From: a virus
IMG/VR virus record: IMGVR_UViG_3300042868_010225
Location: 1 to 34,816 of that record
Direction: 5' to 3' (one strand)
Length of the DNA: 34,816 nucleotides
Of this stretch, positions 7,244-11,232 are shown in pieces (positions within the stretch are counted from its first letter, which is position 1; every line of letters begins with the position of its first letter). The translations under genes and the position numbers were made by a program. The notes under the pieces are model-generated. The model was not told the origin of the DNA, did no database searches, and saw nothing but the letters and a program-made list of their open reading frames with translations.

Positions 7244-8221
7244 ATGAAACACGGATCTTTATTTAGCGGAATCGGTGGCTTTGACCTTGCCGCCGAATGG
7301 GCCGGATGGGAAAACGTTTTTCATTGCGAATGGAATCCTTTTGGACAAAGAGTTTTAAAGCACCATTTCCCAAAATCAATATCATACAATGACATTACTA
7401 AAACAGACTTCACTATTCACAAAGGAAACATTGAGATTCTTAGCGGAGGATTCCCATGCCAACCATACTCAACGGCCGGGCTTAGAAAAGGAAAAGAAGA
7501 CGAACGCCATCTATGGCCGCAAATGCTTAGAGCAATTCGAGAAATTAAACCTAGTTGGGTCGTGGGGGAGAACGTTCGCGGGCTTATTAATTGGGGGGGG
7601 GGATTGGTATTCGACGAGGTGCAAACTGAGCTGGAAGCTGAAGGGTACGAAGTACTTCCGTTTCTACTTCCAGCTTGCGCCGTCAACGCACCACACCGAA
7701 GAGACCGAATATGGTTTATTGCTTACGCCAACAACAAGGGAGGAAGTACAAGACCTGGACAAGTTCAAAGCAAGAATGGAGAAATATCCGAATGGTACAA
7801 CGATGCCGAATCTTGCGACGCAAGTAGTAAAAATGCTTCCAACCCCAACAGCATCGGACAGCCCAGAAAAGAATACGGGAAAATTAAATCAGGACGGATT
7901 ACAAAAGAGGGCAAGAAATGGATTACTACCGACACCGACATTGCAGGAATACACGAACAGCACATTACCTCCAAGTCAAATGAATCGAAACAATATAGCG
8001 GGCCATCTTTTGAGGCAAGGAGTTTCGGCTGCTTCCCAACTAAACCCCCAGTTTGTGGAGGAAATGATGGGATTTCCAGAGAACTGGACGGAATTACCTT
8101 TTCTAAATGGCGCAACGAATCCATCAAAGCATACGGAAACGCAATAGTTCCGCAAGTAGCATACGAAATTTTTAAAACCATAAAACAAATAGAACATGAA
8201 AAAAGAAACCCGAGGCCGTAA
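7244..8221 (+). CDS. DNA (cytosine-5-)-methyltransferase
   Basis: 325 residues with the C5-methyltransferase motifs in order: motif I FSGIGGFDLA (7-16, SAM binding); motif IV GGFPCQPYS (68-76, catalytic Cys72); motif VI ENVRG (109-113); motif VIII HRRDRIWF (151-158); and motif X YGNAIVPQ near 297-304. The stretch of about 160-270 is the target-recognition region and is low in complexity here. The enzyme probably methylates phage DNA against host restriction. A G10 run encodes Gly118-120, and a second long frame overlaps most of the gene (7389-8147). Confidence 0.93.
   Translation: MKHGSLFSGIGGFDLAAEWAGWENVFHCEWNPFGQRVLKHHFPKSISYNDITKTDFTIHKGNIEILSGGFPCQPYSTAGLRKGKEDERHLWPQMLRAIREIKPSWVVGENVRGLINWGGGLVFDEVQTELEAEGYEVLPFLLPACAVNAPHRRDRIWFIAYANNKGGSTRPGQVQSKNGEISEWYNDAESCDASSKNASNPNSIGQPRKEYGKIKSGRITKEGKKWITTDTDIAGIHEQHITSKSNESKQYSGPSFEARSFGCFPTKPPVCGGNDGISRELDGITFSKWRNESIKAYGNAIVPQVAYEIFKTIKQIEHEKRNPRP
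7389..8147 (+). CDS. Overprinted protein in the +1 frame of the methyltransferase gene
   Basis: A 252-codon frame lies wholly inside the methyltransferase gene. Its product does not look like random translation: it has GSWGRTFAGLLIG (57-69), WYSTRCKLSWKLKGTKY (73-89), FYFQLAPST, repeated TPT boxes (LLLTPT at 110-115, MLPTPTASD at 149-157, LLPTPT at 179-184) and LNPQFVEEMMGFPENWTELPF (218-238). From memory, stand-alone hypothetical proteins with the same series (DSHANHTQ, KCLEQF, WYS, PTPTA, LNPxFVxEMMGFPxxWT) occur widely in Bacteroidota phages. In the second half this frame looks more constrained than the methyltransferase frame. The function is unknown, and the start codon is uncertain. Confidence 0.55.
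   Translation: MTLLKQTSLFTKETLRFLAEDSHANHTQRPGLEKEKKTNAIYGRKCLEQFEKLNLVGSWGRTFAGLLIGGGDWYSTRCKLSWKLKGTKYFRFYFQLAPSTHHTEETEYGLLLTPTTREEVQDLDKFKARMEKYPNGTTMPNLATQVVKMLPTPTASDSPEKNTGKLNQDGLQKRARNGLLPTPTLQEYTNSTLPPSQMNRNNIAGHLLRQGVSAASQLNPQFVEEMMGFPENWTELPFLNGATNPSKHTETQ
7593..7602 (+). repeat. G10 homopolymer inside the methyltransferase gene
   Basis: Ten consecutive G residues follow TTAATT. In the methyltransferase frame they encode Trp117-Gly120; in the overlapping frame they encode Gly-Gly-Gly-Asp. Homopolymeric G runs of this length are typical slippage sites for phase variation. Loss of one G would connect the methyltransferase N-terminal half to the overlapping frame just before its WYSTRCKLSW segment. 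It could also be a sequencing length error. Confidence 0.8.
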
Positions 8222-11220: not shown

Positions 11221-11232
11221 GGGGGGGGGGGG
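11221..11232 (+). repeat. G12 homopolymer in the early/late boundary
   Basis: Twelve consecutive G residues, flanked by CTTTTTA and TAAAAAAATAAAG, in an otherwise AT-rich region. It lies 65 bases before the sigma-like gene ATG. Runs of this length are prone to polymerase slippage and are known elsewhere to tune promoter spacing. It could also form a G-quadruplex-like structure with other strands, or be of uncertain length in the assembly. Confidence 0.8.

Follow-up and report, generated by a model that had tools for sequence, protein, structure and literature searches.

An overprinted second frame within a phage cytosine methyltransferase gene and its probable role as half of a split enzyme

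The viral DNA studied here (IMG/VR record IMGVR_UViG_3300042868_010225, positions 1–34,816; this whole stretch of 34,816 nucleotides is called the window) carries a C5-cytosine methyltransferase gene in which a second long reading frame is nested in the +1 phase (Table 1). We call the methyltransferase frame alpha and the nested frame beta. Our results show that beta is a conserved, selected overlapping gene, and that hundreds of phages and prophages carry the same nested arrangement, mostly unannotated. Very probably, the locus encodes an overprinted split C5-methyltransferase, in which alpha is the catalytic chain and beta contributes target recognition and motif IX. We favor this reading because beta carries boxes resembling the TL motif of recognition domains as well as a motif IX, both of which are absent from alpha. 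The motif IX would give the second frame a specific function, which an earlier note on this DNA, made from the sequence alone, had not foreseen.

Conservation and selection of the second frame

The earlier note had drawn attention to a 252-codon +1 frame inside the methyltransferase gene. This frame is confirmed, all peptides that the note quoted are present in its translation, and its openness is beyond chance by two codon tests. When codons were permuted synonymously within the gene, with the alpha protein and the codon set held fixed, the +1 frame contained on average 5.5 stops (P(no stop) = 5e-5). When codons were resampled according to the usage of the other genes in the window, the mean was 11.4 stops, and 0 of 20,000 resamples remained open.

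Relatives sampled blindly with respect to beta gave the same result. The +1 frame was open in all 80 viral loci fetched with the alpha protein alone (52–98% identity), with a length of 164–344 codons and a beginning at codon 38–51 in most of them, while the +2 frame had many stops across the same 80 loci. It was also open in all 71 loci fetched with an alpha profile, which brings the total to 151/151. Among 69 non-redundant loci, the +1 frame contained only 4 stops, versus 272 expected from permutation and 814 expected from window codon usage. In contrast, the +2 frame contained 1298 stops versus 1324 expected. The depletion is 68-fold relative to the synonymous shuffle, and is limited to one alternative frame and to the overlap. 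Frequent second-frame stops in homologues, which the earlier note had named as evidence against an overlapping gene, are not what these loci contain.

As a control set, we used the PF00145 enzymes of 16 host genomes and Dcm of E. coli. Full-length PF00145 controls had as many +1 stops as expected (e.g., 20 vs. 20.3, 17 vs. 17.0 and 23 vs. 21.3). The enzymes in this set that do have an open second frame match PF00145 only in part.

Substitution patterns were investigated in 118 closely related pairs, using our own script to class each substitution as synonymous (S) or non-synonymous (N) in each frame; this is a simple count over non-independent pairs, but its built-in controls behave properly. 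Within the overlap, the +1 frame showed dNN/dNS ratios of 0.44–0.83 and dSN/dSS ratios of 0.35–0.46. Just outside the overlap, the same frame was neutral, both in the 36 codons on its 5′ side (0.96 and 0.91, respectively) and 3′ of the beta stop (1.03 and 1.18). No comparable constraint was found with +2 as the alternative frame.

Purifying selection acts on both frames of the overlap. It affects beta throughout, and alpha in its catalytic part and at motif X, while alpha is relaxed in the variable interval. From motif VIII to the end of the overlap, the codon-position rates were.323/.185/.191 and the dNN/dSN ratio of alpha was 1.13 across homologues. In the interval between motifs VIII and X, the beta frame is constrained and the alpha frame is relaxed, which bears out the earlier suggestion that the second frame may be the constrained one there. 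Constraint is not confined to the methyltransferase frame, and the overlapping gene pair that had been proposed is supported by both the stop depletion and the substitution patterns.

Division of motifs between the two frames

C5-methyltransferases have ten motifs, with a variable recognition region between motifs VIII and IX (PMC3404938). Recognition domains contain a TL motif, P(STCA)PT(ILV)(TASV), located 10–50 residues before motif IX (PMC2413257). Alpha has motifs I, IV (PCQ), VI (ENV), VIII and X. Its match to PF00145 covers only profile positions 1–251 of 324. An alpha profile matches residues 12–176 of M.HhaI and then only motif X, weakly (298–318), while M.HhaI residues 177–297, comprising the recognition domain and motif IX, have no counterpart. 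The AlphaFold2 model of alpha matches the M.HhaI structure. It is confident for residues 1–165, with a predicted local distance difference test score (pLDDT) above 90 in motif X and below 50 for nearly all of residues 167–286. When a position-specific scoring matrix (PSSM) of canonical motif IX was applied to the VIII–X regions of 177 alpha sequences, only 7 scored above the 95% level of shuffled sequences, which is about background. Hence, by the end of the PF00145 match, the PSSM scores and the predicted disorder between motifs VIII and X, motif IX and the small domain are not in the alpha chain.

Beta appears to carry what alpha lacks. The residues of its sequence LNPxFVExMMGFP are spaced as in canonical motif IX (LTPRECARLQGFP), and LNP..MGF was the best window of the motif IX PSSM in 186 of 195 beta relatives (0.9 expected), as well as in the window protein. 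Each beta protein contains 1–7 PTPT boxes, followed by A, T or S, and the last box lies a median of 35 residues before motif IX (10–90%: 27–46). In sequence, these boxes are similar to the TL motif found in recognition domains. The beta protein is recognised by PHROG_1008 (E 4e-24), which is labeled 'DNA methyltransferase', and has no match in Pfam or NCBIfam.

In the split enzyme that we propose, both chains would be made from one mRNA, read in two frames. Alpha, the catalytic chain with motifs I–VIII and X, would come from the first frame, and internal initiation near codon 49 would yield beta from the +1 frame. We infer that both chains are needed and form a complex, in which beta would pack on alpha and bring the TL-type target-recognition boxes and the motif IX that alpha is without, thereby completing the small domain and recognising the target sequence. 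The pair would then methylate phage DNA, most likely as protection against host restriction.

A similar arrangement exists in M.EcoHK31I, whose beta chain is encoded in a different frame of the alpha gene and whose activity depends on both chains. In this two-polypeptide enzyme (YGGCCR), the large chain has motifs I–VIII and X and the small chain has motif IX (PMC3404938). Judged by the arrangement of its motifs, the window locus shows the same split. Because M.EcoHK31I has this split, we regard the split, overprinted C5-methyltransferase as a rare kind that is already known. However, there are also differences. Here, beta has 1–7 boxes and the middle of alpha is predicted to be disordered. 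Moreover, M.EcoHK31I is part of a restriction-modification system, whereas the loci investigated here are apparently solitary phage enzymes. M.AquI alpha/beta is likewise split between motifs VIII and IX, but in the pair described here alpha retains motif X and is overlapped by beta over most of its length. What appears undescribed is the breadth of the arrangement (about ten phyla; phages N15, epsilon15 and K1G-like) together with the evidence for it. We found no description of the overlap in the open-licence literature that we searched.

Several observations weigh against our proposal. In M.EcoHK31I the recognition domain has been assigned to the large chain, whereas here the TL-like boxes are in the small chain. 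At the I/L/V position of the TL motif, the beta boxes mostly have A (PTPTA). When beta was aligned to canonical enzymes with hhalign, motif IX was the only hit and was weak alone (E 0.16), and a beta profile search of the PDB gave no match. Furthermore, the AlphaFold2 model of beta alone was poor (pLDDT 63; predicted template modeling score 0.29), found no fold match and gave meaningless Foldseek hits. A poor model might be expected of a partner-dependent chain, and the recognition-domain fold of beta is putative.

The boxes also invite a more speculative idea. Possibly, beta consists of exchangeable recognition modules arranged in tandem, each of ~38 residues with one PTPT box, that plug into a shared catalytic alpha. 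Phages could then swap or add methylation specificities in one frame, while the other frame tolerates nearly any sequence in that interval. We put this forward tentatively, as somewhat less probable than its negation. The PTPT modules have a median length of 38 amino acids, and modules with at least 85% identity occur between enzymes whose catalytic cores are <65% identical (48 pairs, 46 loci). The relaxed stretch of alpha that is predicted to be disordered coincides with the interval of the PTPT modules. Bacillus phages similarly have multispecific C5-methyltransferases (SPR, phi3T type) in which a single motif IX follows several TL-type modules. These enzymes are single chains in one frame, whereas the pair described here uses two frames. 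Domain swaps in multispecific C5-methyltransferases are cited in PMC2413257.

Alternative explanations and translation of beta

A real overlapping gene could have another function, for instance as a regulator, an anti-restriction protein or a host-interaction protein. The N-terminal third of beta is unexplained by a recognition-domain model, and the lack of a fold or PDB profile match would also suit such a protein. Yet, we consider it unlikely, since motif IX and the TL-like boxes occur in beta in the proper order and spacing, while alpha is without them and enzymes with full PF00145 coverage are without the second frame. Moreover, beta overlapped alpha in phase +1 in all 488 fetched loci (some of which are the same contig fetched twice). 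No stand-alone beta was found in these 488 loci from the genome contigs, viral contigs and phages searched, nor did we find same-frame alpha–beta fusions when we looked for them. The statement in the earlier note that similar proteins exist as stand-alone hypothetical proteins in Bacteroidota phages is not borne out, as each relative fetched overlaps a methyltransferase frame. Annotations that seemed to show beta alone in phages phiKX1, Kc259, PMG1 and ZS04 were rejected for the same reason.

Alternatively, a programmed ribosomal or transcriptional frameshift, e.g., at a G tract, might produce a fused chain of the alpha N-terminus and the beta C-terminus, without a separate beta. About 20 relatives have a G tract at an equivalent place, at about codon 116. 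In most of them it is either G12 or G10 with AT after it, so that the alpha frame is kept, and loss of one G would join the frames. We nevertheless consider this reading very improbable. A long G run is absent from most relatives, a fusion at the G tract would lack motif VIII, and both the constraint on the second frame and its freedom from stops begin far 5′ of the tract, at about codon 47. Stop depletion in the +1 frame sets in sharply 11–15 codons 5′ of the catalytic PCQ of alpha, and from 10 codons before to 39 codons after PCQ we found 0 stops versus ~500 expected.

The second frame also has a start and Shine-Dalgarno (SD) sites of its own. The beta start was ATG in 125 of 126 distinct relatives (viral contigs fetched with the window proteins; L009–L168). 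In the genome-contig set, which consists mostly of Bacillota, SD sites of at least 4 nucleotides preceded 80% of the beta starts versus 74% of the alpha starts and 30% of the control ATGs. Values in a further viral set were 70, 57 and 27%, respectively. The window-type set is without such SD sites at its beta starts, as expected if its hosts are Bacteroidota. The sequence data point to separate internal initiation of beta rather than a frameshift, because the upstream part of the second frame is kept open, which a frameshift would not need.

Slippage by one G would upset both frames, and phase variation of the pair is a possibility. Relatives with the G tract include L009, L010, L011, L025, L033, L049, L054, L097, L110, L121 and L165.

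Finally, the idea that the open frame is an untranslated by-product of alpha's amino-acid or codon composition, or of a constraint on DNA or RNA, has hardly any probability left, because only the general caution that biased genes can hold long +1 frames speaks for it, while the shuffle that defines the 68-fold stop depletion kept the alpha protein and codons, the depletion concerns one alternative frame within the overlap, and the substitution pattern is frame-specific and neutral just outside.

Distribution, annotation and layout of the locus

Judging from record titles, the nested pair occurs in Bacillota, Bacteroidota, Pseudomonadota, Acidobacteria, Chlorobiota, Calditrichota, Elusimicrobia, Treponema, Coriobacteriia and Deltaproteobacteria, which represent about ten bacterial phyla. 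Phages with the pair include N15, epsilon15, BcepC6B, PMG1, Lc-Nu, K1G-like phages and Paenibacillus Fernvirus. Both frames are annotated in some records, one in many, and the second frame alone in a few; most records show one frame because gene callers penalise overlaps. The 'putative Mte8-like protein' of the K1G-like phage fKuEco01 is the same second-frame protein. Papers that we found on the labels PHROG_1008 and 'Mte8-like' discuss neither function nor overlap.

If beta is needed, phage enzymes annotated as single-chain would be unable to function by themselves, and a clone of the annotated protein alone would give an inactive product. Since N15 and epsilon15 carry the pair, direct testing is possible. 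For the study of long same-strand gene overlaps, the locus provides a large natural data set, with overlaps of about 200–340 codons in about ten bacterial phyla and the two frames constrained in different places.

Some individual loci deviate from the general pattern. In L341 (1230–1667; Erythrobacter phage ZS04), L342 and L344, the annotated gene is antisense or the second frame, and the intact methyltransferase frame is unannotated. The alpha frame is disrupted in L406 and L432. In the divergent loci L106 (~1491), L152 (~1506) and L162 (~661), an apparent six-base insertion creates an alpha stop right before PCQ (GGFP*PCQ); the second frame is still open, and immediately 5′ there is a reading frame for an HNH endonuclease. 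L345 (1413–1817; Dunaliella viridis virus SI2 record) has lost motifs I–VIII by deletion with both C-terminal frames open, and is a decayed or truncated copy. Multiple equal-scoring copies per genome were found in Roseovarius (L225, L227, L229, L230, L231) and Lihuaxuella (L182, L183, L184), and are probably multi-copy prophages.

Table 1. Features of the alpha–beta locus; positions are those of the window.
Feature	Position	Strand	Evidence
Alpha: C5-cytosine methyltransferase frame, 325 amino acids, motifs I–VIII and X, without motif IX	7244..8221	+	PF00145, E 3.8e-45
Beta: overprinted +1 frame nested in alpha, 252 amino acids, starts with ATG	7389..8147	+	Open reading frame listing, PHROG_1008, stop depletion, dN/dS-type test
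Beta start codon ATG, ~22 codons 5′ of alpha catalytic Cys codon	7389..7391	+	ATG in relatives; onset of stop depletion
Alpha motif IV GGFPCQP, catalytic Cys72	7445..7465	+	Invariant in 71-sequence alignment
Alpha motif VI ENV	7568..7576	+	E109 and N110 invariant (71-sequence alignment)
G10 run lying in both frames	7593..7602	+	G10/G12 at equivalent place in ~20 relatives
Alpha motif VIII APHRRDRIWFIAYA	7688..7729	+	Conserved in alignment; ordered part of model stops here
Beta TPT box 1, TL-like	7725..7733	+	T113 and P114 conserved in ≥90% of 110 sequences
Alpha residues 167–286, predicted disordered, DNA constrained in beta frame	7742..8101	+	pLDDT, codon-position rates
Beta PTPT box 2, TL-like	7839..7850	+	Translation, box statistics
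Beta PTPT box 3, TL-like	7929..7940	+	Translation; P183 conserved (110 sequences)
Beta motif IX (putative), LNPQFVEEMMGFP	8040..8078	+	Canonical motif IX PSSM; hhalign
Alpha motif X GNAIVPQ, overlapping final beta codons	8135..8155	+	pLDDT >90; conserved

No restriction enzyme was found among the six neighboring genes searched. The neighbors are phage replication genes, with products that include exonucleases, a Prim-Pol primase and a VRR-NUC nuclease. Another long G run, of 12 G, lies at window positions 11221–11232, where it separates the primase gene from the gene next to it.
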